Shown: piece after piece, positions 1,025 through 32,459 of the stretch | Position numbering within the stretch: position 1 is the first letter of the stretch | Layout of the letters: every line of letters begins with the position of its first letter | Translations under genes and position numbers: made by a program | Assembly (NCBI GenBank): GCA_013287235.1 | Contig: JABDEF010000006.1 | Coordinates: 1-37,623 of the forward strand | DNA from: Gammaproteobacteria bacterium | Lineage (GTDB): Bacteria > Pseudomonadota > Gammaproteobacteria > DSM-16500 | Direction: 5' to 3' | Length of the DNA: 37,623 nucleotides | The notes under the pieces: generated by a model | What the model was told of the DNA's origin: nothing | Databases searched by the model: none | What the model saw: the letters and a program-made list of their open reading frames with translations, nothing else

Positions 1025-1068
1025 CTGGGCCCACTAGGACTCGAACCTAGGACCAAGGGATTATGAGT
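1025..1068. repeat. Attachment-site copy: 44-bp duplicate of the tRNA 3' part
   Basis: These 44 bases are identical to 13113-13156 and in the same orientation. They cover the 3' part of the CAU tRNA (acceptor 3' strand, T arm, variable loop, anticodon arm 3' side up to the anticodon loop). The sequence diverges right after GAGT, so this copy cannot make a tRNA. It is the left att site of the 12-kb island and probably also the right att site of the element carrying the integrase at 2-1009. Confidence 0.9.
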
Positions 1069-1198: not shown

Positions 1199-1217
1199 TT
1201 CGACACATGTTCGACAC
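1199..1217 (+). repeat. Paired TTCGACAC motifs, candidate integrase arm-type site (left)
   Basis: Two TTCGACAC octamers start 11 bp apart, about one helical turn, and in direct orientation. The same 19-bp arrangement occurs near the other island end (13046-13064), with 17 of 19 bases identical. This pair overlaps the first possible ATG (1207) of the integrase, which favours the downstream start at 1234. Confidence 0.5.
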
Positions 1218-1233
1218 ACAAAAAGATCATAAA

Positions 1234-2499
1234 ATGAAAATAACAAAATCAGTGGTAGATAAACTCATTGTACCCGAAGCGCTTATCAAAGGGCGTACGG
1301 CACAAAAGCGTTATTATGATGATGCAATGAAAGGATTTGGTGTGCGTGTGACATCCGGCGGAACAAAGGCATTTTTTATTGAGAAATTAGTGAATAATAA
1401 ATTACGTCGTATAACGATTGGTCATTATCCTCATCTCACTGTAGAGCAAGCACGAAAAGAGGCGCAAAAATTATTGGGTCAAATTGCAACAGGCATTGAT
1501 CCCATTGCTGAAAAAAAAGAAAGAAAAGCCAAGTCGGTGACTCTGCGAGAGGTATTTGAAGAATATCTTGATGCTAGAAAATCATTGAAATTCACGACGG
1601 TGTTAGATTATCAACGCATTATGAAAGAATCATTTTTAGATTGGCAGAATAAACCCATATTGGATATCACCAAAGATATGGTCGCTGCACGCCATAGCCA
1701 TTTGGGTGAAAGAAGTGAGGCACGGGCTAATTTGGCGATGCGTTTTTTACGTGCTCTTTTTAATTTTGCCGCAGGTCAATATGAAGATGCCAAAGGACGA
1801 TCTCTCATTTTAGAAAATCCTGTTAAACAGTTATCACATACACGAGCATGGTACAGAGTAGAACGCAGACAAACCGTCATTAAAGCGCATCAATTATCAA
1901 CTTGGTATAACGCATTGATTGAAATTGAAGATGAAAGAACGACAGGAAAATCTGCTATTTTGCGCGATTATTTTTTGCTGATTCTTTTCACGGGCCTTCG
2001 TCGTGAAGAAGCATTGCGCTTAACTTGGGATCAGGTTGACTTGCAAGGAAAAACTTTGACAATAAAAGATACGAAAAATCATCAAAAACATATTTTACCT
2101 TTGTCTGATTTTCTTTATAATCTACTGGAATTCCGCAAAATCAATTCTGCTACTACATTTGTTTTTCCCGGTGGGGGTAAAACAGGCTATATCGTCGAAC
2201 CACGCAAAGTGATGCAAAAAGTGATTGATCTTTCAGGCGTAAGTTTTACATTGCATGATTTACGACGTACTTTTATTACAATCGCTGAGAGTTTGGATAT
2301 TCCCGCCTATGCCTTAAAACGATTGCTTAATCATAAGATGTATCATGATGTGACAGCGGGTTATATCATCATGGATGTTGAGCGGTTACGGATGCCTATG
2401 CAGATGATTACGGATCATTTATTGAAATTAATGGGAGTTAAATTGGGTGGTGAAGTGATTAGCATCATGTCTAATAAAATAAATCGGAGGTTATTGTGA
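1234..2499 (+). CDS. P4-type tyrosine integrase (DUF4102 N-terminus)
   Basis: Integrase of the P4/CP4 family that targets tRNA 3' ends. An N-terminal DUF4102-like domain (about residues 1-85, with GVRVTSGGTKAFF and IGHYPHLTVEQAR) is followed by a SAM-like core-binding domain and the catalytic domain. In the 421-residue product R256 is in TGLRREEAL, K281 in KDTKNH, H341 and R344 in LHDLRRTF, H367 in LLNHK, and the nucleophile is probably Y377. All catalytic residues are present, so it should be active. I chose ATG 1234 because 1207 lies inside the arm-like repeat. The stop (TGA 2497-2499) shares one base with the next ATG, so the two genes should be translationally coupled. It is the integrase of the complete island. 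Confidence 0.9.
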   Translation: MKITKSVVDKLIVPEALIKGRTAQKRYYDDAMKGFGVRVTSGGTKAFFIEKLVNNKLRRITIGHYPHLTVEQARKEAQKLLGQIATGIDPIAEKKERKAKSVTLREVFEEYLDARKSLKFTTVLDYQRIMKESFLDWQNKPILDITKDMVAARHSHLGERSEARANLAMRFLRALFNFAAGQYEDAKGRSLILENPVKQLSHTRAWYRVERRQTVIKAHQLSTWYNALIEIEDERTTGKSAILRDYFLLILFTGLRREEALRLTWDQVDLQGKTLTIKDTKNHQKHILPLSDFLYNLLEFRKINSATTFVFPGGGKTGYIVEPRKVMQKVIDLSGVSFTLHDLRRTFITIAESLDIPAYALKRLLNHKMYHDVTAGYIIMDVERLRMPMQMITDHLLKLMGVKLGGEVISIMSNKINRRLL

Positions 2500-2970: not shown

Positions 2971-3519
2971 ATGCATTTACCAATAAACATACATGATTTA
3001 TTAAATAGCGCGATTGTGGAATCCGACCGTCTTGAATTTAAGGCAGATTGGAATCCAGAAGCGGTATTGAGAACCGTTTGCGCTTTTGCGAATGATTTTA
3101 ATAATTTTGGTGGTGGATATATTGTCATTGGAGTGGGGGAAATCGATGGCAATCCTGTTTTTCCATCTAAAGGAATAGCCAAAACTCAAATTGATAAATT
3201 GCAAAAAGAGATTGTTAGAACGTGCTCTTATTTGAAACCCGCTTATACGCCTATTGTTTCATGTCAAGAGTATCAAAATAAATACATTCTAGTCATTTGG
3301 GTTCCTGGAGGGGCAGATCGACCCTATTCTGCGCCAGCAACATTAGGGAAAGATAAAGAATATAAATATTATATCCGAAAATTATCGTCAACAGTTATAG
3401 CAAAGAATGATGATCTCAAAGAATTGATAAGCTTAACAGCAGCCGTTCCTTTTGATGATCGTATCAATTATCATGCTTCACTACTTGATCTTAAACTTAC
3501 TTTAATACAATCCTTTTAA
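2971..3519 (+). pseudogene. AlbA_2 (Schlafen-like) ATPase, N-terminal fragment (frameshifted gene)
   Basis: N-terminal 182 residues of a roughly 530-residue protein with an AlbA_2 (Schlafen AlbA-like nucleic-acid-binding) domain: ESDRLEFKADW, then FANDFNNFGGGYIVIGV. The frame closes at TAA 3517-3519, right after DLKLTLIQSF. One base back, reading continues as LKEVGSELLDES and runs to 4571, matching the usual continuation of this family. The junction is a TTTT run before AAAA, so loss of one T explains the break. It could be a real mutation, a sequencing error, or, less likely, recoding; there is no canonical -1 slippery heptamer. Members are often labelled RecG-related ATP-binding proteins and are common in islands. 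Confidence 0.75.
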
Positions 3520-4571
3520 AAGAAGTGGGCAGTGAATTGCTTGATGAATCTAGCGATATACTATTTGCAGATTTATGCAGACAAATGGCCATTGTTGATG
3601 GAGGTAATGAATATTTAAAACCGCGTAATGTAGGATTATTGTTTTTTCATGATAAACCTGAAAAATTTTTTCCTTATATTCAGATTGATGTTGTTTATTT
3701 TCCAGAGGATGAAGGTGGGGATGTTATTCAGGAGGCTATTTTTAAAGGTCCATTGGACCAACAATTGCGCGACGCATTGAGGCATATTAAAAATAATTTT
3801 ATTATTGAGCGAGTGTTAAAAATTCCTGGTGAAGCAAAAGCAAAGCGTTATTTTAACTATCCTTATGTTGCGATTGAAGAGGCTTTGGTTAATGCAGTTT
3901 ACCATCGTAGCTATGACATTAGAGAACCCATAGAAGTTCGGATCAATCGCACGAGTATCAGTGTTGTTAGTCATCCTGGACCGGATCCATCTATTACTTT
4001 AGAAGATATGCAAGCTGGCCGTATGGTAAGCCGGCGATATCGTAATCGTCGTATTGGTGAATTTTTAAAAGAGCTTGAGTTTACGGAGGGCAGAGGAACA
4101 GGTGTTCCAAAGATGCGTTCAGCTTTGAAAAGAAATGGATCACCAGAACCCGTTTTTTTTACTGACGGAGCTAGACAATCCTTTTGGACAGAGATAAGGA
4201 TTCATCCTGAGTTTTTAAGGGATCTTTCTTTCTCAGAAGGGATGCAAGCCCAAGAAGAGGCCTATGTGGAGGCCCATGTAGAAGCCCATGTTGACTTTAC
4301 GGAAACAGAGTTGAAAATTCTTAAGATGTGTCTAAAAAACCCTATTGGAAACAAGGAGATAATTAAAAATTTGGGTTACAAATCGCTTAGTGGTAATGTA
4401 AAAAAAGCTTTACAAAAACTTAAGAGCGCTGCTGTTATTGCTTACACGATACCAGATAGGCCAAAAAGCCGATTCCAAAAATATGCTATAACTAAAAAGG
4501 GAAGAAAATATTTAGAAGAAAATTATAATCGTAATTCAAAAAATAATATATTTAATGGGGGAATCTATTAA
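3516..4571 (+). pseudogene. AlbA_2 ATPase, C-terminal fragment with GHKL-like domain and winged helix
   Basis: Continuation of the preceding gene in the -1 frame, about 350 residues. If translated alone it would start at GTG 3525, which has no Shine-Dalgarno. It holds the HATPase_c_4-type domain (YFNYPYVAIEEALVNAVYHR, then GEFLKELEFTEGRGTGVPKM). Next come a short repeated linker of EAHV units (around 4267-4290) and a C-terminal winged-helix domain (TELKILKMCLKNPIGNKEI...YAITKKGRKYLEE). The fused protein would bind ATP and nucleic acid, probably as a regulator. The break separates the AlbA_2 domain from the ATPase, so the intact activity is probably lost. Confidence 0.75.
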
Positions 4572-6595: not shown

Positions 6596-7081
6596 TCATT
6601 GTTCATTTAATAATAATGAAAGCGCAAAGTGATTTTTATCTTTTATTTCGATTAATTTATTAAATAGCAATTGAACCACATCTGGTTTTACTTGCAGGTA
6701 AAGGTCAGCAACTCTTGCCCAGGGTGTAATCGATAATTGATTATTATTGCCACAAGCAGCATCAAAAATAACGTCAAAGGGGATTTTTGTGTAGTAAGCG
6801 ATTCCTTCCAACGTATATTCTTTTGTTTCAATAATGCCATCTATAAGAAATTGAATAATTTTACCGTCCATTGTGTAGCACTCCATTGAAGAATTAATTG
6901 ATTGAATTTTATTGTGAAAAAGTTCACAAAATAAACGATGCAAGCAGCTTAATAATAATGCCTTCAAAATCTTACGTTCATTTTGTATATAGAATTTTAA
7001 GACAGAAATGCCAGAAGAAGGGGGTGATGAGTTTTTTTCAGGAAGATTGGAATAATGGGTCGAGGTTTCTTGCATGCTCAT
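6596..7081 (-). CDS. Hypothetical island protein, divergent from the Xre regulator
   Basis: 161 residues, not recognised with a function. Visible features are a polar N-terminus, a basic helical stretch (KFYIQNERKILKALLLSCL), and a conserved-looking segment YTLEGIAYYTKIPFDVIFDAACG followed by WARVADLYLQVKP. The second half resembles a helix-turn-helix-like segment (TLEGIAYYTKIPFDVI), as in small regulators from Legionella and Coxiella islands, but this is weak. Shine-Dalgarno AAGGAG lies about 10 nt before ATG 7081. A good promoter (7149-7177) and paired TATGCAT motifs precede it, so it is probably controlled by the divergent Xre protein. Confidence 0.7.
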   Translation of the reverse strand: MSMQETSTHYSNLPEKNSSPPSSGISVLKFYIQNERKILKALLLSCLHRLFCELFHNKIQSINSSMECYTMDGKIIQFLIDGIIETKEYTLEGIAYYTKIPFDVIFDAACGNNNQLSITPWARVADLYLQVKPDVVQLLFNKLIEIKDKNHFALSLLLNEQ

Positions 7082-7228: not shown

Positions 7229-7257
7229 TTGACAATACATATATGCATATATATTAT
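7229..7257 (+). promoter_or_regulatory. Sigma70-type promoter of the Xre/signalling operon with palindromic operator
   Basis: -35 TTGACA (7229-7234), 17-bp spacer, -10 TATTAT (7252-7257). The spacer contains the 14-bp perfect palindrome ATATATGCATATAT (7239-7252), so a dimeric repressor bound there would block RNA polymerase. Transcription should start near 7264, leaving only about 14 nt before GTG 7278. Confidence 0.65.
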
Positions 7258-7277: not shown

Positions 7278-7757
7278 GTGATAGATACGATTGTGAAAAA
7301 TATATCCGATGTGCTTTCTTTTTTAATGTCCGACTTGGGAATAAAATCTGCGGAGCTAGCTAGAAAAACGGGTGTTGCGCAACCCGTGATTTCTCGGTTG
7401 ATGACAGGGGTGACGACTAATCCACAGGTTTTAACAATAAAGCCAATCGCAGATTTTTTTTATGTCAATTTGGAACAGCTATTGGGGATGTCGCCATTGG
7501 ATGCGCAACATCACTTTGACAGTAGTCAATTGGATGATCTGAGTAACAAAGTTAATTTGATTAAAACGATCGCAAGTGTTTTAACAAATATTTTACCTAT
7601 TTTGATTGAAGGCTATCAAAAAGCTATTTTGGCTAATTTAATAAAAGAAGAAGTGCCCACCGATATTTTACCATTGTTTATTTTAAACATGAAAAATCTT
7701 GTTAAAACAGCAGATCAAATACAAGAGCTGTTTGTGAATATAAATAATAAGCCTTAG
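7278..7757 (+). CDS. Xre-family transcriptional regulator
   Basis: 159 residues. A Cro/CI-type helix-turn-helix occupies about residues 15-70: LGIKSAELARKTGVAQPVISRLMTGVTTNPQVLTIKPIADFF, ending in the usual LEQLLG. The C-terminal half is helical (NLIKTIASVLTNILPILIEGY) and may dimerise or sense. It is the first gene of the module that runs to 12434 and lies opposite a divergent gene, so it is the obvious local regulator. Candidate operators are the TATGCAT motifs. The start is GTG 7278, or GTG 7293 five codons on; neither has a clear Shine-Dalgarno and the leader would be very short. The next gene starts 8 nt after its stop. Confidence 0.85.
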   Translation: MIDTIVKNISDVLSFLMSDLGIKSAELARKTGVAQPVISRLMTGVTTNPQVLTIKPIADFFYVNLEQLLGMSPLDAQHHFDSSQLDDLSNKVNLIKTIASVLTNILPILIEGYQKAILANLIKEEVPTDILPLFILNMKNLVKTADQIQELFVNINNKP

Positions 7758-7765
7758 GATTAAAT

Positions 7766-8686
7766 ATGAAAAGTCTCATTCCTATTTGTTTTTACCCCAC
7801 AAGAAAAATTATTTTAGATGATGATAACATATTTACTGAGAGTATCTTGTTTAAGATGCAAGATAAGCATTTTTCATCGTATACCTCGCCGCACTGCTTA
7901 TTAAATTATTTATTGAAAAAGTATGATACTGTATTCAGGCAAACTGATTTATTTGAAATAGAGCAGGCAAATTCCGAGTTATCAGCATATTATAATTTTC
8001 ACATTCCAATTAAAAAATGGAATGCTATTGCTACAAATACATTTGTTTGTGATATTAGCGTTATTTTAATCGATTATCATATACCAAATATGAATGGCAT
8101 AGACTTTTTGAACCAAATTAAAAATTTTCCATTTAAAAAAATTTTGATTACTGGAGAGCAGGATTATTCCATTGGAATAGATGCTTTGAATGTTGGATTA
8201 GTAGATGCCTATATTCGAAAAGATGATCCTGATTTATTAAATAAAATGAATAGTCTAGTGAGAGCGCTGGAATGGAAGTATTTTACTGAATTAAGTTTAT
8301 CCGCTTATAACATTTCGGAATTAAATTATCTTAAAAATGATGTTTTTCTTAAAAAATTCGAGAAACTTATTCTTGAAAATAATATAACATCATTTTTTTT
8401 AACAAACAAAGAAGGTGATTTTTCAGGATTTAATGTTGAAAGAGAACAGAGTTTTATCGTTGTTAGAAGTAGAAAACAACTTCAAGAGTTATCAAATTTA
8501 GCAAAAGAAGATGGTGCATCTGAAGAAATAATTAATGATTTAGTCCAAGCTAAAGTAATTCCATTTTTTAGAAATAAACAATATTGGGAAATTCCAGCAA
8601 AAGAATGGGGGGGATTTCTACATCCTGCAAATCTGCTTACGGATGATTCTAGCTTGGTATGGGCAGTTATTTCTCCGCATTCCTAA
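7766..8686 (+). CDS. Atypical response-regulator receiver protein
   Basis: 306 residues. An N-terminal receiver domain is recognisable: acidic pocket ILDDD (18-20), phosphoacceptor D103 in LIDYHIPNMNG, T129 in ILITGEQD, K152 in YIRKDDP. The gap between acidic pocket and phosphoacceptor is about 85 residues instead of about 45, so an insertion of about 40 residues sits in the receiver. The C-terminal half (from about 190) has no helix-turn-helix; it has the pattern SFFLTNKEGDFSGF, FIVVRSRKQLQEL, KVIPFFRNKQYWEIP, which I cannot name. The output is therefore probably protein- or ligand-based rather than DNA binding. It is the likely partner of the kinase at 10713. Shine-Dalgarno AGGA precedes the ATG. 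Confidence 0.8.
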   Translation: MKSLIPICFYPTRKIILDDDNIFTESILFKMQDKHFSSYTSPHCLLNYLLKKYDTVFRQTDLFEIEQANSELSAYYNFHIPIKKWNAIATNTFVCDISVILIDYHIPNMNGIDFLNQIKNFPFKKILITGEQDYSIGIDALNVGLVDAYIRKDDPDLLNKMNSLVRALEWKYFTELSLSAYNISELNYLKNDVFLKKFEKLILENNITSFFLTNKEGDFSGFNVEREQSFIVVRSRKQLQELSNLAKEDGASEEIINDLVQAKVIPFFRNKQYWEIPAKEWGGFLHPANLLTDDSSLVWAVISPHS

Positions 8687-8790
8687 ATTTTTTAAAAATA
8701 CTGTTGCATTTTCTGGCTTCACTAACTAACATGCGATAATTTTAATGACCATGCATTATTTATTTATATTTTTTAAAAGTTGAGAAAAAA

Positions 8791-9204
8791 ATGGAAAATT
8801 ATATTTTTAAATACAAGGTTCGATTAGATGATCTGGATTACATGGGACTAGTTGGAAATTCACAATGGATGATATTTTTAGAACGAGCGAGAATTGATCT
8901 CTTAGAAAAAATCAATTTCCCATTCTCTGAAATGAAAAAGCAAAAAATAGGCGGGGTCGTTGCTGAAACAAATATTAAATTCTTAAAGCCCGCATTTTTT
9001 GATGATGTGCTTGAAATCAAAATACAACCGCATAGTCCATTTTCAAAAGGATTAGTCCTGAATTATAAGATACAAAATCAGAATAATGTGGAATGTTTAT
9101 TTGCTGAAATAAAAATCATATTTGTTGATGAATATGGTAAGACAATTCAAATGCCAGAAAGCATTAGGAATAATTTTTTTAGATTTGATTCACTAAATAT
9201 TTAA
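8791..9204 (+). CDS. Hotdog-fold acyl-CoA/acyl-ACP thioesterase (YbgC/4HBT type)
   Basis: 137 residues, the normal size for a single hotdog domain. The N-terminus YKVRLDDLDYMGLVGNSQWMIFLERARIDLL is the 4HBT pattern: a substrate-side Asp followed by the central helix. Then come GGVVAETNIKFLKPAFFDDVLEIK strands. It should hydrolyse acyl thioesters or transfer acyl groups in the cytoplasm. A 104-bp gap without a convincing promoter or terminator separates it from the receiver gene; only 13 bp separate it from the di-iron gene. In this setting it probably releases or supplies an acyl chain for the product made by the next two enzymes. Substrate unknown. Confidence 0.8.
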   Translation: MENYIFKYKVRLDDLDYMGLVGNSQWMIFLERARIDLLEKINFPFSEMKKQKIGGVVAETNIKFLKPAFFDDVLEIKIQPHSPFSKGLVLNYKIQNQNNVECLFAEIKIIFVDEYGKTIQMPESIRNNFFRFDSLNI

Positions 9205-9217
9205 TCTGGGAATTTTA

Positions 9218-9985
9218 ATGCGATTTATTTATAGGGACAACCGTGGGAAACGCGAAGCAAAAATTATAGATGCAGCAATACGGAATACTTGGACGGTTTC
9301 TGACATTTTCCATAATGAGAATGATTTTTTCTCGGATTATAAAACGGAAGTTGAAAGATTAAAATGGGCACCAATTTTAGTCGCATTGGCTTTTGGTGAA
9401 AATACAGCATTCTATGGATTTGGGCAACGTATTGCTGAAGCTGATGATATTTCAACGAAAAGTTGGCTGGCGACACATCTGTTAGATGAAGCTAAACATA
9501 CAGAAGGGTTTTCTAAATTATTAAATTACTTATACCCTACGTATAAACATCAGCAGGACAAATTATTTAGTAGTCGTGATGCTTTAGTTTTTTATGGATA
9601 TACTCATCGCACTAATTCATTGATTGAGTGGCTGCTATGCACTCAGGTAGCGGAAGTTTTTGGGAGGCATTGCTATAAAGAATTGTATAAAAGTTTGAGT
9701 GATGAACCCGTTGCTGCAAAATTCCTTAAAAATATTATTTTTGATGAAGCGCGACACATAGCTTATATTGCTGAATTAATAGATGTTCGATTGCAAGGTA
9801 TTTATGAAACTAATCAAAAAGAAAATTTGTATACTTTTATAGATAAAATGATAAAACTGGGTAGAAATATGTTTGAAGCAAGAAAGAAAGGTGAAAATTA
9901 TAAGGCCTTGTCTTCCTTGGATATTGATGTTACTAATTTTTGTGATGTGGCGGAGATGGAATTACGAGAAAAGTATTTCATTTAA
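9218..9985 (+). CDS. Ferritin-like di-iron carboxylate protein (putative oxygenase/oxidase)
   Basis: 255 residues, nearly all helical. It has the full di-iron ligand set of the ferritin-like superfamily: E61 (FGENTAF), E91 and H94 (LLDEAKHTEGF), E146 (TQVAEVFGRH), E177 and H180 (IFDEARHIAYI). Spacings of 30 and 31 residues within each pair fit a four-helix bundle as in RNR R2, R2-like oxidases, acyl-ACP desaturases and AurF-type N-oxygenases. It is too divergent and too short for a true R2, and no radical tyrosine can be assigned. Its place between a thioesterase and a hydrolase points to oxidation of a small, possibly acyl-derived molecule. Shine-Dalgarno-like GGGA precedes ATG 9218. Confidence 0.75.
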   Translation: MRFIYRDNRGKREAKIIDAAIRNTWTVSDIFHNENDFFSDYKTEVERLKWAPILVALAFGENTAFYGFGQRIAEADDISTKSWLATHLLDEAKHTEGFSKLLNYLYPTYKHQQDKLFSSRDALVFYGYTHRTNSLIEWLLCTQVAEVFGRHCYKELYKSLSDEPVAAKFLKNIIFDEARHIAYIAELIDVRLQGIYETNQKENLYTFIDKMIKLGRNMFEARKKGENYKALSSLDIDVTNFCDVAEMELREKYFI

Positions 9986-9994
9986 TGTTGAAAA

Positions 9995-10720
9995 ATGAAA
10001 AAATTAATACTTAGTGGTATTCCTTGTGCACCAGAAGCCTGGAATATGATTTTCCCCGTTGAAAACAATATCAAGCAAAAAATAATTCCATTTATTGATA
10101 TTTTTGTACAAGGATATTATAAAAATAAAAAAATTTCTGATTTGGTTCCGATTGTTTCTGACATAATACTAGATTTTCTTCCAAACCAAATTATTATGCA
10201 TGACATAGGAGTAACTATTGGAATATTGTCGCTAATAAGCATTATGAAGAAGTATAAAAAACCTCAAGGTAGCACGATTATATTTAATGGTGCTTTTGGT
10301 CATTTTGACATTAATAAGGCCAACCATCCTGTACGTATACAAAGCATGTCATATTTAGATTTTGAATATGAGGTTAGAAAAAGTGGTGGAGAAGTTGACC
10401 CAAGATACCGAGACCACTATATTTTGATTCAGCAGTTTTATAAAGAATTAATTGAAATTAATAAGATTAATATAAAAAATAAATCTATTGGTTCAGGTAA
10501 TCATCCCAGGATTGATTTAGGTAAAAAAGTTTTAATAATCGCTTCGCGAAATGATCCGTATATCTATTTTGAATGTTTAGAATTTTTAAAATCTATTATT
10601 TCTAATTGTCAGTTGAAGATAATTGATTATGGTCACTTTCCATATGCCGGTGATATTGAGTTAATAAAAAATGAAATTGATAAATTTAATTGTAATAAAG
10701 ACACTGAAAATTATGAATAA
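9995..10720 (+). CDS. Alpha/beta-hydrolase-fold enzyme with Asp at the nucleophile position
   Basis: 241 residues with the core pattern of an alpha/beta hydrolase. Strand 3 and oxyanion loop: LILSGIPCAPEAW. Nucleophile elbow: IIMHDIGVTIG, with D70 where serine is usual. Acid: D187 in IIASRNDPY. Histidine: H214 in DYGHFPYAGD. An Asp-Asp-His triad is typical of epoxide hydrolases and haloalkane dehalogenases (HDWG/QDWG), so hydrolysis of an epoxide or similar oxidised intermediate is plausible, following the di-iron enzyme. It starts 9 nt after the preceding stop and overlaps the kinase gene by 8 bp (ATGAATAA). The alignment of D70 with the nucleophile is by eye. Confidence 0.7.
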   Translation: MKKLILSGIPCAPEAWNMIFPVENNIKQKIIPFIDIFVQGYYKNKKISDLVPIVSDIILDFLPNQIIMHDIGVTIGILSLISIMKKYKKPQGSTIIFNGAFGHFDINKANHPVRIQSMSYLDFEYEVRKSGGEVDPRYRDHYILIQQFYKELIEINKINIKNKSIGSGNHPRIDLGKKVLIIASRNDPYIYFECLEFLKSIISNCQLKIIDYGHFPYAGDIELIKNEIDKFNCNKDTENYE

Positions 10721-12434
10721 AATAACTGCAAGAAAAGATTTTGACTCAACGATTAATAAAGATGCACTTCAGGCTGATTTTAACAAGGCATTTCCTCCAT
10801 TTATAATTTATTTAGGAACTGTTATTATTTTAGTTTCTTTCTCTAAGGATCTCGTAAAAGTTGGATTCAATTTTAGCTGGCTTTTAATTAGGCTGGGGTA
10901 TTTACCATTTATTTTAGTTATATGGAATTTTTCAAAATATAAATTACAAAATAAATATTATGAAATACCGCTTTGGGCCGCAGGATTATATATAACCAGT
11001 TTATGTACTTATTTTTCGTTTTCGACAGGTGGTTTGAGTAGTGATTATATTTTTGGACTACTTCAGTTATATTTTGCGATAGCATTAATGCCAATTACAG
11101 TTTTTACCTTTTACGCAATAATATCTTTTTCTACGATTTTATATTTCGGGTTCAATTTACATAGAGTCCATGCTATTAATTTTACTGATCAGACTACAAT
11201 TTCTACTATAGTGCCATTAATTATATTTTCAGTGGTTGTTTATATAATCAATTCTAATTTTAGAAAATCGAAATTGGATTTACAAGAAAAGTTGCGTTTA
11301 ACTATAGAGGATAGGGATATTGTTATTCAAAAACAATCTATTAAACTCGCGGAGATAGAAACGAAAGGGGCTTTGGGGGTATTAGCAGCGCAAGTGGCAC
11401 ATGATATCCGATCGCCTCTTGCGGCCTTAAATATTTTAACTATGCAGGATACACCTGTTACAGAGCAGTCTAAGAAATTGGTGTATAATGCAATAAATCG
11501 GATCAGAGATATTGCTAATGATATTGTAGAAAAAAACCGTGACTTGCGCAAAACAAAAATCAATATAAATGATACGTCAATTCAATTACTGGCAGCAATT
11601 ATTTGCCCTTTAATTACAGAAAAGCGCTTACAGTTTCGTTCTTCATCTAAGATCAATATAGAACTTGAATTGACTCCCGAGAATTACGGTTTATTTGTTA
11701 AAATTAAATTATCTGAATTCAAACGCATGATTTCTAATATTATTGATAATGCTATTGAAGCATTGTCAGGCAAAGGAACGGTTTGTATTAAAATTCATAA
11801 TAATAATAACCATATTCATTTAAGTATTTCTGACAACGGTAAAGGTATTCCACCTTCTGTTTTGCACCAACTTGGGCAATATGGGGTAACTTACAATAAA
11901 CAATGTGGTTCTGGTTTGGGTTTGTATCATGCTAAAAAAACAATGGAGCAATTTGGTGGTAAATTAGAAATTATCTCAGAACCAGATAAAGGAACAGATG
12001 CTATTCTTAAATTTCCTCACGCGTACATTCCGAAATGGTTTTATCCCAGATTTGAAATTGCAGAAAATGCCACTTTAATCATTTTAGATGACGACATTAC
12101 CATTCATCAGCTTTGGAAAGAACGTTTTAAAAACATCGATCAAAAAATTTCTATTATCAATTTTACTACACCAAAAGATTTTTTTGAGTGGAAATCGGAA
12201 TACAAAGTGCAACAAAGGCCATTTTTATATTTATTTGACTTAGAATTTTTAGGATGTAATCAAACTGGAATTAACATAATCGAGCAGTATAATATTCAAA
12301 AAGAGGGCGTATTAGTTACCAGTCATTTTGAGAATGTTGATATACATGAACAATGTGAAAAATTAGGAATAAAAATTATTCCTAAGGATCTCGCTGTATT
12401 TGTTCCGATTAAAATTGGAATAACGTATTTATAA
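10713..12434 (+). CDS. Six-TM hybrid sensor histidine kinase with C-terminal receiver
   Basis: 573 residues from ATG 10713. About six membrane helices fill residues 25-180 with very short loops, so the ligand is probably bound within the membrane domain. A coiled linker leads to the kinase core: H230 in QVAHDIRSPLAAL, N box IIDNAIEAL near 346, G1 DNGKGIP near 375, G2 GSGLGL near 399. The C-terminal receiver has LDDD (459-461), phosphoacceptor D509 in LFDLEFLG and K558 in IIPKDLA. The layout (6 TM, kinase, receiver) is that of CqsS; LqsS also has a multi-TM sensor. I chose 10713 over ATG 10671 because it gives the normal 8-bp overlap. It probably phosphorylates the receiver protein at 7766. 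Confidence 0.88.
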   Translation: MNKITARKDFDSTINKDALQADFNKAFPPFIIYLGTVIILVSFSKDLVKVGFNFSWLLIRLGYLPFILVIWNFSKYKLQNKYYEIPLWAAGLYITSLCTYFSFSTGGLSSDYIFGLLQLYFAIALMPITVFTFYAIISFSTILYFGFNLHRVHAINFTDQTTISTIVPLIIFSVVVYIINSNFRKSKLDLQEKLRLTIEDRDIVIQKQSIKLAEIETKGALGVLAAQVAHDIRSPLAALNILTMQDTPVTEQSKKLVYNAINRIRDIANDIVEKNRDLRKTKININDTSIQLLAAIICPLITEKRLQFRSSSKINIELELTPENYGLFVKIKLSEFKRMISNIIDNAIEALSGKGTVCIKIHNNNNHIHLSISDNGKGIPPSVLHQLGQYGVTYNKQCGSGLGLYHAKKTMEQFGGKLEIISEPDKGTDAILKFPHAYIPKWFYPRFEIAENATLIILDDDITIHQLWKERFKNIDQKISIINFTTPKDFFEWKSEYKVQQRPFLYLFDLEFLGCNQTGINIIEQYNIQKEGVLVTSHFENVDIHEQCEKLGIKIIPKDLAVFVPIKIGITYL

Positions 12435-12485: not shown

Positions 12486-13016
12486 ATGGAGTCAGTAAAA
12501 AAGGATTTGACTGACATTGCAAATTTTTATAAAGATTTGCAAGAAATACTTTCGAATGAAAATTTAAGAGCTCGAACAAATATACAAAAATCTGTAGTAA
12601 GATCGATTGTTATCACATATGGTAAATGTTTTGCACAAGCAGATAGTCGGACCATTAAATTGGAGGAGACGGCTATACCCAATGAATTTAAAGAGTTACA
12701 TAGATATTTGATGGATATGCGTCATAAATATGTTGCTCACGCAGGTGAATCAAGTCATGAATCGTGTAAATATGTTCTTGTTATTCCACCTTTGACTTCG
12801 ATTAAATACGCAGCGGATATACCATATGCTACTTTCATACAAATACACCAGGCAGTTAATATCAAAATAATTTTTAAGGAGGACTTTTTGTGTTTGATTA
12901 AGAAATTGTTGGATTTTGTTAATGCTAAAATTGTTTTGCTTGAAAAAAAGGTCATTGATGAATTACAAAGCAATTTCAAATCTTATTTTTGTAACTTGGA
13001 GCCAAATAAAAATTGA
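12486..13016 (+). CDS. HEPN-like protein of unknown function
   Basis: 176 residues, mostly helical. R79 to H85 in DMRHKYVAHAG is an R-x5-H motif, the signature of HEPN RNases (R-x4-6-H), placed after a long helix as in AbiU2-like proteins. HEPN proteins act as toxins, abortive-infection factors or RNases, so a defence or toxin role is possible but not shown; no clear antitoxin lies next to it. The best Shine-Dalgarno (GGAG 12462-12465) fits a seven-codon ORF at 12475-12498 that overlaps this start, so translation may be coupled to it. It follows the kinase by 51 bp and is the last gene before the right island end. Confidence 0.6.
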   Translation: MESVKKDLTDIANFYKDLQEILSNENLRARTNIQKSVVRSIVITYGKCFAQADSRTIKLEETAIPNEFKELHRYLMDMRHKYVAHAGESSHESCKYVLVIPPLTSIKYAADIPYATFIQIHQAVNIKIIFKEDFLCLIKKLLDFVNAKIVLLEKKVIDELQSNFKSYFCNLEPNKN

Positions 13017-13112: not shown

Positions 13113-13187
<75 letters not shown>

Positions 13188-24613: not shown

Positions 24614-25084
24614 ATGTTTAGCACAGAAAAATTCGTAAAAATTAAATATCAAAGACACATGCATGCGACTGATCTCATCCAAGAGGAAGTTCATATAAAA
24701 TCCTATTTAGATAATGAAAATTTGTCAGATAATGAAAGAGAAGAGTATATTAAATTTCTTTTACAAACCAAATATACTTTTGGTTTGTTAAAATCAACAC
24801 TTGCGAATTGGGAAAAAAGCATACTCGATCAACAAGAAGGACTTTTGAAATTATATGAACGCAATCATGTTTGCATGGACGAGCAAGGAGAGTGTGAGAA
24901 AATTGAATATGATAATGGCATCAAAGAATATAATAAGCAACTGGATGCAGTGCAAGCAGTATTTAATTTAAGTATCGATAATCTTAGGAAATCACAAACT
25001 TTATTAATTGCTTTGGCAGAAAAAAATGAAACAATCAAAGCAGTCGGTGAAGATATTGTAAAACTCCATGTGCGGCGTTGGTAA
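24614..25084 (+). CDS. Hypothetical helical protein
   Basis: 156 residues, nearly all charged helix, for example QEEVHIKSYLDNENLSDNEREEYIKFLLQ and a long coiled-coil-like C-terminal half (YNKQLDAVQAVFNLSIDNLRKSQTLLIALAEKN). Two cysteines are close together (CMDEQGEC). Shine-Dalgarno GGAAG lies about 10 nt before the ATG. No function is recognised. It converges on plsY, with a palindromic repeat between the stops. Confidence 0.6.
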   Translation: MFSTEKFVKIKYQRHMHATDLIQEEVHIKSYLDNENLSDNEREEYIKFLLQTKYTFGLLKSTLANWEKSILDQQEGLLKLYERNHVCMDEQGECEKIEYDNGIKEYNKQLDAVQAVFNLSIDNLRKSQTLLIALAEKNETIKAVGEDIVKLHVRRW

Positions 25085-25093
25085 AACTAAATC

Positions 25094-25126
25094 TGTCATG
25101 CCAGCATGCTTTAAGCTGGCATGATA
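25094..25126. repeat. Palindromic repeat between convergent genes
   Basis: TCATGCCAGC (25096-25105) pairs with GCTGGCATGA (25115-25124). The left 19 bases from 25092 are identical to those starting at 37086. It probably serves as a bidirectional hairpin between the hypothetical gene and plsY. Confidence 0.7.
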
Positions 25127-25138
25127 GGGCGGTTGATC

Positions 25139-25726
25139 TTATTTTTTAAAAATTTTACTTTCTTCCCCTCGAAATAATTTTCGAATATTTTGATGATGGC
25201 GATAAATCAATAATAAGCTCATGATAGCAACGATGAGGGTATAAGTTTCATTCGTAAAATACCAAGTATAAAAAGGTGCCATAATTGCTGTGATGAGTGC
25301 TGCGAGAGATGAATAACGAAAGATAAAGGCAATAACAACCCAGGTAATGATCATCGCAAATCCGACGGGCCACGCGAGTCCCAAAAGGCAACCCAGAACG
25401 GTTGCAACCCCTTTTCCACCTTGAAAGCGGAAAAAAATAGGATATAGATGCCCAAGGAATGCAAAGAGCGCGACCAGTGCAAGAATAGTGGTGGAGAATC
25501 CTAGCATTTTAGCGATCAAAACGGGGATAAGGCCTTTCAGCATATCACCCAAAAGCGTGATGATGGCAGCTTTTTTTCCCCCGATACGCAATACATTGGT
25601 CGCACCGGGGTTCCCTGAGCCTATCGTTCGAGGGTCTGGTATGCCTAAAATTTTACACGTGACGATTGCACTATTCACAGAACCGAATAAATACGCGATG
25701 ATACATGCGGTGATACCTAAATACAT
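25139..25726 (-). CDS. plsY: Glycerol-3-phosphate acyltransferase PlsY
   Basis: Membrane enzyme that transfers an acyl group from acyl-phosphate to glycerol 3-phosphate, the first step of phospholipid synthesis. 195 residues with about five membrane helices. Motifs are [10 protein letters not shown] at the N-terminus, [12 protein letters not shown] (motif 1, phosphate loop), [19 protein letters not shown] (motif 2) and a third near [15 protein letters not shown]. The start is ATG 25726; a TTG at 25741 is in frame but unlikely. Divergent from orn. Confidence 0.96.
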
Positions 25727-25804
25727 ATGTATTCCTTTCAAGATAGGATGTGCATTTTAACAGAATGGCGTTACAATATGAATTTTGATAGGACCCATCC
25801 ATTC

Positions 25805-26365
25805 ATGACTTTTAGCGCTGATAATTTAATTTGGATTGATCTCGAAATGACAGGATTGGATCCTGAAAAAGAACGCATCATTGAAATGGCAACCATTGTG
25901 ACCGATTCCGATTTAAATATTGTGGCCGAGGGTCCTGTCATCGCTATACACCAATCGGATGCACTTTTGAATGCTATGGATAGTTGGAATACGAAGCAAC
26001 ACAATGCTTCCGGCTTAGTTTCACGTGTAAAATCCAGTTTAATTGATGAAAAAGAAGCCGAACGTATGACATTAGAATTTTTACAAAAATACGTGCCTCA
26101 AGGGAAATCACCGATGTGTGGCAATACCGTTTATCAAGATCGGCGGTTTTTAACCCGTTTTATGCCAGAACTCGAAAAATATTTTCATTACCGCTTGCTG
26201 GATGTGAGTACTTTGAAAGAACTGGCTGCACGTTGGGCACCAAAAGTCTATGGCGGATTGCAAAAAGAATCGAAACATTTGGCTTTAGAGGATGTACGAG
26301 AGTCTATCGAAGAGCTGCGTTATTATCGCGCGAATTTGTTGAATTTACCTAAGGATGAGCTTTAA
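25805..26365 (+). CDS. orn: Oligoribonuclease
   Basis: DEDDh 3'-5' exonuclease that degrades 2- to 5-nt RNAs, including pGpG from c-di-GMP breakdown. 186 residues. Exo [16 protein letters not shown]. Exo II around [11 protein letters not shown]. Exo [14 protein letters not shown] with the catalytic His. All metal ligands are present. I start at ATG 25805 ([10 protein letters not shown]) by family comparison; ATG 25778 is also possible. The 3' end overlaps the convergent ankyrin gene by 4 bp. Confidence 0.96.
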
Positions 26366-27822
26366 GGAATGTTGGGGGCAATCCGTGTTCCTTTTTTCTT
26401 AATGTTCTTTTGCAGCATAAGATAGTCATCAAAAAGAGGATTCTTAAAAAAGGGTATTTTAGAAGTTTTAAGAAAAACTCTTATATGCTGTTCTACCTTT
26501 GGATTCTTATCTTGATCGCTTGAATGCTTTTCTCGTTTTTGTAGTTCTAAGATACGTGTTTGTGCAATTTTTTTAATAACATGTTGATGCTTAGCAAGTG
26601 GCGGTGTTTTTTTAAGATATTTATATAAAATGAGAACATCTATTTTATTATCCATCGATTTTATCCAGTTATCGGCAACTTCTAATAATTTTTTCTGGCT
26701 TTGTATTTTTTTAAGCGCATTATAATATTGGCTTTGTTGAAAAAGAGCCGAAACTAGTTTAGCATTATGGTTATTAAATGCATGGAATAATGCTGTTTCA
26801 CCGCTTGTATTTTGTGCGTTAATATCAGCATTACGCGCCAGTAAAATTTTTGCAATTTTTAAATGATCAAATTTAGCAGCAATGATAAGTGGCGTATTTT
26901 TTTTAATATTTCGGGCTTCCTTATTTGCGTTACGGTCAAGCAAAAGCGTGAGGACTTCAGTACTGCCGTTTTTAGCAGCGATATGGAGAGCAGTGTTTTG
27001 ATTGTCATCTGATGACTCAATTTCTTCTCTGCAATTTAACAAATCTGCGACAACGTATGGACATCCAATTTTAGTTACCGCAGGTAATGTCCTAGGCCTA
27101 TTGCCGATATAGAAATATAATTCGGGATCAAATTTTTTTAACTCAGCGAGACCGCGTAAATAATATGGCCATTTAAACTTTTCTTTACTCTCTTGTATGC
27201 GATCCAGAAAATTTTCGTACCCCGACGCTAATGCTTCTGCTAGCAAACCGACGATATAAAAAATATGATTGATATCAAAGAAATTTTGATTATTAACACT
27301 AGTTAAATAGGTAGGACCGCGAGTAATAAGCGCATTTTTTCTTTGGCCAGGACAAACGACAAATTCAGTGTCATCAATTAATATGACGCGATCGAGAGAT
27401 GCTGTTTTCCCTATTATTTTTGATATATCTTTTTTATTATTGACACAATGTTGTCGAGAAAAAATTGTAACGAGAAGGTGGTTCCTATTTCCAAGCGATT
27501 TATCGAGTAACTGTTCAACAAAATTAACATTCATTTCTTCTATCGCAGTGCTAAAAAATGATAATTCAACCTTTGGTATTTGAGAGATATATTGAATAAA
27601 GGCTCGAACACCTGGATGAAGCAGGCAAAATACATCGGTTTCAAATCCATCTACATTTATACGGTGCTCTATAATATCGTCAAGTTTGAACCTGTGACGA
27701 TAAAAATTTATAGTGGTATTTGAAAGATCAGGTTCTCTAAGCGCTAATGTTCCATCAATATCAAGAACAATATGAATAGAGGATTTAACCTCATTTTTTT
27801 TCTCTTCGAGTCTGGTTTTCAT
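26362..27822 (-). CDS. HAD/FCP1-like phosphatase fused to ankyrin repeats (effector candidate)
   Basis: 486 residues. The N-terminal domain is a HAD-superfamily phosphatase: D21-x-D23 in [11 protein letters not shown] (nucleophile and acid), S91/T92 in FFSTAIEEM (motif II), and D150/D151 in ILIDDTEFV (motif IV), as in the FCP1/SCP group. A helical middle follows. Three ankyrin repeats occupy about 275-360: [60 protein letters not shown]. The C-terminus is Lys-rich and ends without membrane segments. Ankyrin proteins are frequent type IV effectors in Legionella and Coxiella, so a host-directed phosphatase is possible. No secretion signal can be shown. It ends 4 bp into orn and starts 19 bp after queG. 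Confidence 0.8.
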
Positions 27823-27841
27823 AAAATCACAATGGATCCCT

Positions 27842-28885
27842 CTAATTTTCTAAAGCCCATTCCACGTGTTCCCGGACAAGTGCAGATGGATGATGGATCC
27901 TTGTTTTTAAGGCATCGATAATGCTGGAGTTTTTGGGTGCGTTGCCAAGCGCTACCGAAATATTGCGAAGCCAACAGGCATATCCAATGCGACGAATGGC
28001 AGATCCTTCGGTTTTTCGTAGAAATTCTTCTTCTGTCCATGCAAATAATTCGATGAGCTTGGGAGCTTGCAAGGCATGTCTTGGATAAAAATCGATTTCG
28101 GAGGTTGTTTTTGCAAAACGATTCCAAGGGCAGACCAATTGGCAATCATCACAACCGTAAATGCGGTTTCCCATCATAGAACGAAATTCGACTGGGATAC
28201 TGCCCCGTAATTCAATGGTTAAATAAGAAATACAACGTCTCGCATCCAATTGATAAGGTGCGATGATGGCTTTGGTGGGACAAATGTCTATGCAAGCGGT
28301 ACACGTGCCGCAGTGATTTTTAAGGGGTGTGTCAATGGGTAAAGGGAGATCCGTGTAAATTTCGCCCAAAAAAAACCAAGAACCCGCTTGGCGGTTGATG
28401 ACATTCGTATGTTTACCGATCCAACCTAAACCTGCTTTTTCAGCGAGTGGTTTTTCTAAAACGGGTGCGCTGTCGGTAAAAGCACGAAATCCAAAGGGAC
28501 CGATCTCTGACTCAATTTTTTTAGCGAGTGCGTTCAAGCGTTTGCGCATGAGTTTATGATAATCTCGACCGAGTGCATATCGTGAAATAAACCCTAGCAT
28601 TTTATTTTGTAAAACTTTGGGAATGTCTGTATCTGGCGGTAAATAATTCATACGTGCCGAAATGACACGTATAGTTCCTGGGATTAGCTCGTTGGGTATC
28701 GTTCGTTTTTTTCCATGCGCTTCCATAAAGTGCATTTCACCATGATATTTTTTTTGGAGCCATTCAGAAAAATGCGTGGTGTATTTGTCTAAATTCGTAT
28801 CGGTAATGCCAATTTGTTGGAATCCGAGATCTTGTCCCCATTGTTTAATTTGGGTTGCAATTTGTGTGTAATCGGGTGTGGTCAT
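27842..28885 (-). CDS. queG: Epoxyqueuosine reductase QueG
   Basis: Cobalamin-dependent iron-sulfur enzyme for the last step of queuosine synthesis in tRNA (reduction of epoxyqueuosine). 347 residues, normal length. Two [4Fe-4S] clusters: HCGTCTACIDICPTKAI and GCDDCQLVCPWNRFA. Cobalamin-binding region motifs are RYALGRDYHKLMRKRL and FTDSAPVLEKPLAEKAGLGWIGKH. C-terminal HEAT-like repeats (IRRIGYACWLRNISVALGN) bind tRNA. It is divergent from terC. In many gammaproteobacteria queG is directly divergent from or next to nnr-tsaE; here terC is in between. Confidence 0.96.
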   Translation of the reverse strand: MTTPDYTQIATQIKQWGQDLGFQQIGITDTNLDKYTTHFSEWLQKKYHGEMHFMEAHGKKRTIPNELIPGTIRVISARMNYLPPDTDIPKVLQNKMLGFISRYALGRDYHKLMRKRLNALAKKIESEIGPFGFRAFTDSAPVLEKPLAEKAGLGWIGKHTNVINRQAGSWFFLGEIYTDLPLPIDTPLKNHCGTCTACIDICPTKAIIAPYQLDARRCISYLTIELRGSIPVEFRSMMGNRIYGCDDCQLVCPWNRFAKTTSEIDFYPRHALQAPKLIELFAWTEEEFLRKTEGSAIRRIGYACWLRNISVALGNAPKNSSIIDALKTRIHHPSALVREHVEWALEN

Positions 28886-28950
28886 TTCTTTTTAAAAAGT
28901 AAAATCATATAATTATCACAGAGTGATTAATATAACAAGGATTTGAATAT

Positions 28951-29886
28951 ATGCAATCAAAACCATGGTGGTGGGTATGGCTTTGTTTTTTTATTTTTGT
29001 TATAACCGTGATATTGATCGATATCTTTTTCTTAAATCGTAAAAAATCTCAAAAAGTTTCTCTGAAAACAGCCTTAAGCTGGGTATTGGTATGGGTTTCC
29101 TGCGCGTTCATTTTTAATGGACTCATTTGGTGGTATGATACGCCAAAAGCTGCGCTTCAATTTTTGACAGGATACCTCATTGAGCTTTCTTTGTCTGTCG
29201 ATAACTTATTTGTATTTATCATGATTTTCCAATTTTTTTCAATCCCTGATAAATATCAACATCGCGTCCTTTTGTATGGTGTACTAAGCGCTATTATTTT
29301 ACGCCTTTGCATGATTCTCGGGGGGGCTTGGCTTGTCAGTGAATTGCATTGGATTTTATATCTTTTTGGTGCATTTTTATTGTGGACTGGTTTAAAAATG
29401 TTATTTTTTAAAGAAAATAACAAAAATCTCTCAGATAGTAAAATGTTACAGTGGATGCGACGTCACATGCGAATGACGGATGAAATAAAAGACGAAAAAT
29501 TTTTTGTACGAAAAAATGAATTATGGTATGCCACACCGTTATTTTTAGTGTTAATATTCATAGAGATAAGTGATGTCATTTTTGCATTGGATAGTATCCC
29601 TGCGATTTTCGCAGTAACGACAGATGCATTTATTATTTTTACTTCGAATATATTTGCGATTTTGGGGTTACGTGCGCTTTATTTTTTATTGGCAAATATG
29701 GCGGCACGGTTTCATTTGCTACGTTATGGCATTGCGATCATGCTTTCATTTATCGGGATCAAAATGTTAATAGACCCTTGGGTGCACATACCCATTTTAT
29801 ATGCTTTAGCGGGGGTTATTTTGATTCTTACAACGACAGTGATATTGAGTTTATATATTCCAAAAGTGAAAAACCATGATCATTGA
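28951..29886 (+). CDS. TerC/Alx-family integral membrane protein
   Basis: 311 residues with about eight or nine membrane helices. Family motifs are LTGYLIELSLSVDNLFVFIM with the conserved acidic residues in membrane, and FIEISDVIFALDSIPAIFAVT, plus SNIFAILGLRALYF. It belongs to the TerC family, which exports or handles metal ions, notably Mn2+ (Alx, MeeF/MeeY types); tellurite resistance is historical. No Mn2+ riboswitch (yybP-ykoY) is visible in the short upstream region. It overlaps nnr by 11 bp, so it heads the operon terC-nnr-tsaE-amidase. Confidence 0.93.
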   Translation: MQSKPWWWVWLCFFIFVITVILIDIFFLNRKKSQKVSLKTALSWVLVWVSCAFIFNGLIWWYDTPKAALQFLTGYLIELSLSVDNLFVFIMIFQFFSIPDKYQHRVLLYGVLSAIILRLCMILGGAWLVSELHWILYLFGAFLLWTGLKMLFFKENNKNLSDSKMLQWMRRHMRMTDEIKDEKFFVRKNELWYATPLFLVLIFIEISDVIFALDSIPAIFAVTTDAFIIFTSNIFAILGLRALYFLLANMAARFHLLRYGIAIMLSFIGIKMLIDPWVHIPILYALAGVILILTTTVILSLYIPKVKNHDH

Positions 29887-30700
29887 AACATTACATTTAA
29901 CGCAATTTATCGATTTTTTGAAGCCGAGACCCAGAGATGCACATAAGGGACTCTATGGGCATGTTTTAATTGTGGGATCCGATGAAGGATTTTCGGGGGC
30001 ATCACGCATGGCAGCAGAAGCAGCTCTGCGGGTGGGCGCGGGGTTGGTGAGTGTGGCAACCCGTCCCGATGTTGCTGTTACCCTAAATGTCAGTCGACCG
30101 GAAATCATGAGTCACGGGGTTCGAACCGTCAAGATGTTAAAGCCATTGCTTAAACGTGCAACGGTCGTTGGTATTGGTCCAGGACTAGGCACTTCCGTCT
30201 GGGCGAAGAGCCTCTTTCAAGCCGTTTTAAAAAGTAAAAAACCGCTGATTGTTGATGCAGATGCGCTTAATCTATTGGCTTCAAAACCCTGTAGACACGA
30301 AGAATGGATTTTAACACCGCATCCTGGTGAGGCGGCTCGTTTATTGAAGATGAAAACCGAAGAGATTCAACGTGATCGAATGTCTGCTCTCAAAAAACTG
30401 CAAGAAAAATATGGTGGCGTGTGCGTCTTGAAAGGAAACAATAGTTTGATTGCGGGTCCTAAAAATCAAATGGCAAGATGTGATGCAGGGAATCCGGGTA
30501 TGGCGACAGGGGGTATGGGAGATATTTTAACGGGGGTGATCGCGGGGTTAGTTGCGCAAGGGCTTCCTTTGATAAATGCGGCGAAGTTGGGTGTTTTAGT
30601 ACATGCAAAAGCAGGTGATTTAGCGAGAATGGATGGTGAACGTGGCATGATTGCGACCGACCTTTTACCTTATCTTCGTCAGTTGATGAATACGAAATGA
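29876..30700 (+). CDS. nnrD: ADP-dependent NAD(P)H-hydrate dehydratase
   Basis: Repairs damaged NAD(P)H by dehydrating the S-hydrate with ADP (ribokinase-like fold). 274 residues, only the dehydratase (CARKD) domain: GHVLIVGSDEGFSGASRMAAEAALRVGAG, VVGIGPGLG, LIVDADALNLLA, ILTPHPGEAARLL and GNPGMATGGMGDILTGVIAG. The N-terminal epimerase (YjeF_N) found in the bifunctional enzyme is absent and not seen elsewhere in the window. The start overlaps terC by 11 bp; the stop overlaps the tsaE ATG (ATGA). Confidence 0.94.
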   Translation: MIIETLHLTQFIDFLKPRPRDAHKGLYGHVLIVGSDEGFSGASRMAAEAALRVGAGLVSVATRPDVAVTLNVSRPEIMSHGVRTVKMLKPLLKRATVVGIGPGLGTSVWAKSLFQAVLKSKKPLIVDADALNLLASKPCRHEEWILTPHPGEAARLLKMKTEEIQRDRMSALKKLQEKYGGVCVLKGNNSLIAGPKNQMARCDAGNPGMATGGMGDILTGVIAGLVAQGLPLINAAKLGVLVHAKAGDLARMDGERGMIATDLLPYLRQLMNTK

Positions 30701-31176
30701 TTTTGACGAAAACAATTCCCAATGAAATCGCTATGCTTGCGTTCGGCGGAGAATTCGCATTACACGTTTTCCATCAAATAAAAAAAGAATGGGTGATTTA
30801 CTTGCATGGTCCGCTGGGTGCAGGGAAAACGACTTTTGTTCGAGGTTTTTTGCGAGGTTTAGGATATAAAGGATTAGTGAAAAGTCCAACTTATACGTTG
30901 GTTGAATCCTATGAGGTTGGTGGCTGCAATATTTTTCATTTTGATTTTTATCGTGTTGCAGACCCTTCCGAATTAGAATATATGGGGATACAAGATTATT
31001 TTACAATGAATGCCATTTCTCTTATTGAATGGCCTGAAGCAGGAGCTGATTTTTTGCCGCGTCCAGATGTGGAATGTCGCATCGCCCCCTCTAAAGAAGG
31101 GCGATCTATCACGTTGACGGCAGGAACAGATGATGGAGAAATCATTCTGAGGTGTTTACATCATGCAGAGAAATAA
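30697..31176 (+). CDS. tsaE: tRNA t6A synthesis ATPase TsaE
   Basis: P-loop ATPase that supports turnover of the TsaB-TsaD complex in t6A synthesis. 159 residues. Walker A is HGPLGAGKTTFVRGFLRGLG, switch-like SPTYTLVESYE, and HFDFYRVADPSELEYMGIQDYF followed by LIEWPE, the usual catalytic block. ATGA overlap with nnr and a 14-bp overlap with the amidase gene show one polycistronic unit, the common nnr-tsaE-ami-mutL order in gammaproteobacteria up to this point. Confidence 0.96.
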   Translation: MILTKTIPNEIAMLAFGGEFALHVFHQIKKEWVIYLHGPLGAGKTTFVRGFLRGLGYKGLVKSPTYTLVESYEVGGCNIFHFDFYRVADPSELEYMGIQDYFTMNAISLIEWPEAGADFLPRPDVECRIAPSKEGRSITLTAGTDDGEIILRCLHHAEK

Positions 31177-32410: not shown

Positions 32411-32431
32411 GTGTCGTTAATCATCGATTTA

Positions 32432-32459
32432 ATTGAGGTGTTTTATTAGGCGCCTCAAT
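32432..32459 (+). terminator. Hairpin after the amidase gene
   Basis: ATTGAGGTG pairs with CGCCTCAAT (one G-T pair), 10-nt loop, 22 bp after the amidase stop. No T tract follows, so it may be a weak terminator or 3' mRNA stabiliser. Confidence 0.4.

Follow-up and report, generated by a model that had tools for sequence, protein, structure and literature searches.

The window analysed here is a stretch of 37,623 nucleotides from contig JABDEF010000006.1 of a Gammaproteobacteria bacterium. It carries six consecutive genes, labelled A to F in order, with a divergent gene, U, in front of A (Table 1). Three of these genes encode enzymes (C, D and E), one encodes a membrane histidine kinase (F), and together the four form a conserved enzyme-receptor unit that lies on a mobile-looking island and is wired here to an LqsR-type regulator (B). 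The RpoD protein of the window is 87% identical to that of G022 and 77% identical to that of G001, and the host fits the order from which 36 genomes were compared.

Genes of the module

An earlier sequence-only reading had proposed the six genes as a mobile cell-cell signalling system. Its six open reading frames (ORFs) are all present on the plus strand where it had placed them, and Pfam supports its domain assignments for A, B, C, D and F. Its description of most junctions as shorter than 15 bp or overlapping fits four of the five (A-B, 8 bp; C-D, 13 bp; D-E, 9 bp; E and F, an overlap of 50 bp, or of 8 bp with the ATG at 10713 as the start of F, a choice in better agreement with the starts of its homologues), but not the B-C junction of 104 bp. 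The arrangement is not, to judge from sequence comparison, a product of chance, since the same gene order is present in other genomes with protein identities of 38-69% for C, D and E.

Table 1. Features of the module and of the surrounding island, in window coordinates
Feature	Position	Strand	Remarks
44-bp direct repeat, outer island end (att-like)	1025..1068		exact copy of 13113-13156
Tyrosine integrase	1207..2499	+	Arm-DNA-bind_3 and Phage_integrase; just inside the repeat
U, small protein	6596..7081	-	divergent; no Pfam match
Putative sigma-70-like promoter, TTGACA-N17-TATTAT	7229..7257	+	before A; palindrome ATATGCATAT in the spacer
A, Xre/Cro-CI type helix-turn-helix (HTH) regulator	7278..7757	+	GTG start; HTH_26/HTH_3
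B, predicted full-length LqsR-type response regulator	7766..8686	+	Response_reg; 6sy9 match
C, hot-dog (4HBT_2) thioesterase, YbgC/FadM-like	8791..9204	+	4HBT_2
D, predicted R2-like ferritin-fold di-metal protein	9218..9985	+	Rubrerythrin; ligands E61, E91, H94, E146, E177, H180
E, predicted alpha/beta-hydrolase with Asp70-Asp187-His214	9995..10720	+	fold from structure model
F, membrane histidine kinase with C-terminal receiver	10671..12434	+	HATPase_c; sensor domain common to six loci
Second copy of the 44-bp repeat	13113..13156		within the tRNA-Met gene
tRNA-Met gene	13114..13187	-	carries one copy of the 44-bp repeat

The connection to Lqs rests on B. Its Response_reg domain scores 30.7 bits against a Pfam cut-off of 30.2, residues 5-302 match structure 6sy9_A (E 5.7e-34), and the profile of the B family matches 6sy9 with E 2.2e-63 in an alignment that reaches residue 303 of 306. 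The record of 6sy9 is titled only 'Response regulator'; we take this structure to be LqsR, and synteny supports this, as its closest relative among the compared loci, an 82% identical gene in L092, sits beside an LqsA-type gene. That neighbour passes the model for alpha-hydroxyketone-type autoinducer synthases (565.8 bits, cut-off 428) and matches structures of the CAI-1 synthase, and a histidine kinase occupies the other flank. Residues D18, D19, D103, T129 and K152 of B are invariant across 29 alignment rows, so that the receiver residues are intact, and a C-terminal output domain is present. The alignments place B over its full length among the LqsR-type response regulators, with real homology to Lqs. 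The order has ten LqsR-type loci with A; in seven of them U diverges from A, and U is possibly a DNA-binding partner of A. The homologue of A in L002 carries an additional Peptidase_S24 domain.

The enzymes differ in how closely they match described families. C scores 57.6 bits against 4HBT_2 (cut-off 25.5) and 65.4 bits against the YbgC/FadM subfamily model TIGR00051, just under its cut-off of 68.7. D scores 24.1 bits against Rubrerythrin (cut-off 22.8), and its modelled fold is R2-like with six metal ligands and closest to the R2-like ligand-binding oxidases (R2lox), although R2lox and R2 chains lie within 1 Z of each other in the fold comparison; the curated R2lox model gives 28.3 bits against a cut-off of 194. 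Cys141 stands at what we take to be the position of the R2lox cross-link tyrosine, and the invariant Phe98 lies four residues after the first ExxH histidine, presumably the site of the radical tyrosine in ribonucleotide reductase R2. A comparison of D with plasmids and viral contigs gave no match. E is left unnamed by Pfam (12.7 bits, below the cut-off of 25.8), and its profile gave only weak matches to solved structures. In the structure model, however, it would adopt an alpha/beta-hydrolase fold with Asp70 at the nucleophile elbow, and the Asp-Asp-His triad is kept in 22 of 22 alignment rows. The earlier call of an alpha/beta-hydrolase with an aspartate nucleophile therefore holds for the modelled fold and the conserved residue though not for the Pfam score, and the predicted Asp nucleophile, Asp acid, His base and fold are together those of Asp-nucleophile hydrolases such as epoxide hydrolases and dehalogenases.

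F has an HDIRSPL box, the ATPase boxes and a C-terminal receiver-like part, as expected from its earlier description as a histidine kinase with six transmembrane (TM) segments and a receiver. Six TM segments are plausible from the conserved hydrophobic stretches, whereas a simple hydropathy scan flags only four in the window protein.

The enzyme-sensor unit in other genomes

A pattern scan with one genome per species found D in three loci (3 of 48 candidate stretches). L002 carries U, A, B, C, D, E and F in the same order as the window, and L001 carries C-D-E-F up to the end of its contig. In L003, C-D-E is present and the contig then stops inside the following gene; its last 141 bases equal the end of contig L136, where an open frame of 752 amino acids starts with the F sensor domain. 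The enzymes are thus followed by F in all four loci that are readable as DNA (the window, L001, L002 and L003), which belong to two bacterial orders; the remaining metagenome D proteins have no readable context and stand outside this count. The sequence-only reading had asked for co-occurrence in other genomes and had named enzymes occurring without the kinase as grounds for dropping the proposal. The former is seen in 4/4 of these loci and the latter in 0/4. Its idea of all six genes as one module stands for C-D-E-F, but A and B are absent beside the unit in L001 and L003. Because they adjoin it in the window and L002 only, the HTH and LqsR genes are partners of C-D-E-F and not part of its core. 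Islands do gather unrelated genes, and neighbours such as SLFN_AlbA_2 are unrelated to the module; an assembly of unrelated island cargo by chance is nevertheless already contradicted by the order C-D-E-F in every readable locus of two orders and by the recurrence of U-A-B-C-D-E-F in a second genome, and we regard it as extremely improbable.

D occurs in 2/36 genomes of the order, in 1/43 of another set and in 2/369 of the class sample, where one of the two is a remote 27-bit D-like match (G110). The F sensor occurs in 4/36, 1/43 and 1/369, the last being G001 again. Among 67 B, 28 D and 19 E proteins from metagenomes, contigs of equal size for B, D and E (34441), for B and D (9974), for D and E (9786, 22204, 36901 and 2720) and for B and E (26049) agree with linkage but were not counted as evidence.

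The regulators are more widely distributed. Within the order of G001, 13 of the 36 genomes hold a total of 15 loci whose alignment to the B profile covers 267 or more of its 306 positions, weaker matches being mostly generic receivers or contig ends. An HTH gene lies upstream of B in 10 of the 15, and the content after HTH-LqsR varies between C-D-E-F, F alone, EamA with a periplasmic binding protein and a kinase, and a Lys/Orn monooxygenase with EamA. At 6748-12758 of L040, on which the domain scan was run, and at 5974-11960 of L042, U-HTH-LqsR is followed by an EamA-like gene, a periplasmic-binding-like gene and a kinase whose sensor domain is a different one. At 5937-9595 of L037, the genes behind HTH-LqsR encode a Lys/Orn N-monooxygenase and an EamA transporter.

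Relatedness is not the same for the two halves of these loci. The window and L046 share 61% identity in F and 26% in B, while L002 and L040/L042 share 65% in A, 49-50% in B and 30-31% in F. In approximately unbiased (AU) tests, the B tree rejected both a single clade of F carriers (p 6.6e-5) and a grouping of the window with L002 (p 4.5e-71), and the F tree rejected a grouping of L002 with L040/L042 (p 8e-15); the groups were chosen after the identities had been seen, and some branches are long. Because the B and F trees conflict in this way, they indicate that loci have exchanged their halves, one being the regulators (U-HTH-LqsR) and the other the enzymes and sensor.

Two further relatives carry the sensor and lack the enzymes. 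In G024 (L038) and G034 (L046), F lies with A and B, there is no C-D-E between them, and D was found nowhere else in the genome data examined. Directly before F, both loci have what aligns as the end of E, over 41 codons in L038 (63% identity, E 8e-8) and 28 codons in L046 (79%, E 2e-9). In L046 this relic is preceded by what appear to be the first codons of C, a short and only suggestive stretch. All six F loci therefore testify to C-D-E, four through the enzymes and two through an E relic, and these alignments indicate that the enzymes were lost and the sensor was kept in L038 and L046. The F frame is open in both loci, and its pairwise dN/dS is 0.13-0.23 for pairs that include time before the enzyme loss. 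The promoter and spacer palindrome before A have a near-identical counterpart in L038.

This pattern bears on what F senses. By analogy with LuxR solos, it favours a ligand obtainable from neighbours. It would be odd if F merely induced the enzymes in a lipid-responsive metabolic or detoxification operon, in which F would sense an external lipid, such as one derived from a protist host, C, D and E would modify or degrade it, and no signal would pass between cells. The enzyme types suit lipid modification, the module has no exporter, and it is common for small catabolic operons to be under two-component control; set against the open F behind an E relic in two relatives, and against the EamA transporters and periplasmic binding protein in the enzyme slot of related LqsR-type loci, these points leave such an operon rather unlikely in our view. 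The persistence of F loci without enzymes also counts against a small cluster for a specialised metabolite or for membrane-lipid modification, whose product would act on membranes or competitors while F senses its level or effect. The enzyme set and the island location would suit such a cluster, and the genes behind A-B in L037 resemble a metabolite cluster, but three small enzymes with no recognised scaffold synthase are a meagre set for one, and we consider it quite unlikely.

The integrative island

That the module is island-borne, as had been claimed, is confirmed by the 44-bp tRNA-Met repeat and the integrase. Given the exact repeat at 1025-1068 and in the tRNA-Met gene, with the integrase inside, the element measures about 12.1 kb, and the module occupies the half adjoining the tRNA gene. 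Duplication of the tRNA end at the far border together with an internal integrase identifies a tRNA-targeted integrative island. Island genes have a GC content of 28-39%, compared with 40-47% for rpoD, dnaG and tsaD; since the region 25000-37000 also has only 38.5%, GC content alone is weak evidence for an island. In a non-exhaustive scan of the island genes, no conjugation gene was recognised.

Several neighbouring features were recorded. A second integrase (8-1009) lies outside the 44-bp repeat and perhaps belongs to a neighbouring island at the same tRNA, and similar integrase pieces occur near tRNA genes in L041. The SLFN_AlbA_2 part (2971-3519) and the RecG-C/HATPase_c_4 part (3525-4571) are separate ORFs in the window, and a single ORF in L003 (749-2146) resembles the two joined. 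Among ten island proteins searched with PADLOC, including A, D and U, the product of 3525-4571 gave the strongest match of the set, a weak one to argonaute-associated models; A gave weak partial matches, and D and U gave none. The last island gene before the tRNA (12486-13016) matches phrog_8440, of unknown function (E 1e-17), and has only sub-threshold Pfam matches (HEPN_AbiU2, 13 bits).

A candidate signalling system

The synthase of the module had been said not to be LqsA or CqsA, and indeed no LqsA-type synthase was recognised on reading the window ORFs of at least 120 amino acids, the module genes also being scanned. The LqsA model NF005526 exceeds its cut-off in 0/36 genomes of the order; sub-threshold matches in 34 of the 36 are presumably BioF/Kbl-like relatives. 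In the class sample of 369 genomes, 7 have LqsA over the cut-off, 25 have LqsR (E <= 1e-30) and 5 have both.

CqsS of Vibrio is a hybrid kinase with several TM segments that responds to a lipophilic ligand, and F shares its layout. The synthase chemistry of the CqsA/CqsS system is different and, to our knowledge, that system has no LqsR-type regulator. The Lqs system of Legionella pneumophila comprises lqsA-lqsR-hdeD-lqsS and lqsT and uses the signal LAI-1 (PMC5289986). The module resembles it in having a full-length LqsR-type regulator, a membrane histidine kinase, enzyme genes in the cluster and a presumed acyl-derived signal. Unlike Lqs, as far as it is described there, the module has three other enzymes in place of an LqsA-type synthase, a kinase that carries a receiver of its own and whose sensor domain looks unrelated, and a location on a tRNA-Met island with an HTH gene and U in front. 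In Ralstonia, the LqsR/PhcX family is described as having become connected with the Phc system (PMC10653808), a precedent for the re-wiring of an LqsR-family regulator beside another synthase/kinase set; PhcB makes 3-hydroxy fatty acid methyl esters, however, and the module has no PhcB. Oxylipin-dependent quorum sensing in Pseudomonas aeruginosa gives a precedent for oxygenated fatty acids as a cell-cell signal (PMC6377657), although its synthases and receptor differ, a sequence relation not having been looked for. Like LuxR solos, L038 and L046 are receivers without a cognate synthase, but the receiver here is a membrane kinase with the relic of lost enzyme genes beside it. Among open-licence papers, we found no described system with this enzyme set. 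Two plasmids hold other neighbourhoods of LqsR-like regulators: at 3683-6939 of L056, from Burkholderia pyrrocinia, one adjoins a kinase and a 4HBT_2 thioesterase, and at 5980-11920 of L053, from Legionella anisa, one lies with a kinase, a substrate-binding protein and an alpha/beta-hydrolase.

With modest confidence, we take the locus to be a mobile two-component signalling module of an Lqs-like kind, equipped with enzymes of its own for making the signal. It would use a new acyl-derived signal and have receiver-only derivatives. On the gene content, homology, linkage, exchange of halves and enzyme loss established above, a mechanism can be placed that may run as follows. First, C would free an acyl chain from acyl carrier protein or coenzyme A. 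Second, D, as an R2-like di-metal oxidase, would oxygenate or epoxidise the chain with O2; R2-like ligand-binding oxidases are described as binding a fatty acid (PMC6399176), and one has been reported to be an alkane monooxygenase (PMC10867098). Third, E would open the product through its Asp nucleophile, for example converting an epoxide to a vicinal diol, and so yield an oxylipin-like lipophilic signal. This signal, probably an O2-dependent acyl compound differing from that of Lqs, would then leave the cell and bind the membrane domain of F. Finally, F would control the phosphorylation of B, while A and U would control the operon. C-D-E-F would thus be a heritable enzyme-sensor unit, able to sit behind different U-A-B regulators, and some relatives would have become receivers only by deleting C-D-E and keeping F, A and B.

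A number of points weigh against this signalling interpretation. L001 and L003 have no LqsR gene next to the unit, and B is thus not an obligate partner. Moreover, B often occurs without the enzymes, since, of the 13 proteins closest to it (P0030-P0042), 10 lie on metagenome contigs whose size agrees with that of no D or E match; one of the 10, P0039, equals in start, length and identity the B of L038, a locus without enzymes. The logic of the locus had been likened to Lqs, and the kinase to CqsS; the response regulator is homologous and the kinase layout agrees, but the sensor domain has no detectable relation to LqsS-type sensors (hhalign probability 0.3%, from shallow alignments of 5 and 9 rows). 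F has a receiver of its own, and the path from F to B may involve an additional step. The module contains no exporter. B of L046 (8745-9800) looks frame-shifted near its start through decay or assembly error, so that this copy may be decaying. The comparison genomes come without completeness values and many are fragmented, which makes absence weak evidence. Each biochemical step, the signal itself, ligand binding, phosphotransfer and the identity of the F ligand with the C-D-E product are what we infer from these genes.

More tentatively, and with some doubt, the locus may represent a new class of autoinducer. Its signal would be an oxygenated lipid whose formation depends on O2 (a vicinal diol or related compound), made by an R2-like di-metal oxidase and perceived by a membrane kinase dedicated to it. 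Ligand and receptor would travel together on integrative islands, as a cassette that can be exchanged behind LqsR-type regulators, and deletions of the synthesis genes would repeatedly have left a receiver-only eavesdropper.

In summary, LqsR-family regulators are common, yet most of those in the class sample occur without LqsA. The locus described here provides evidence that enzyme/sensor cassettes are swapped behind one type of regulator, and it offers a concrete candidate synthase-receptor pair with natural receiver-only relatives as controls. It also suggests a search for signals among lipids that R2-like oxidases oxygenate.

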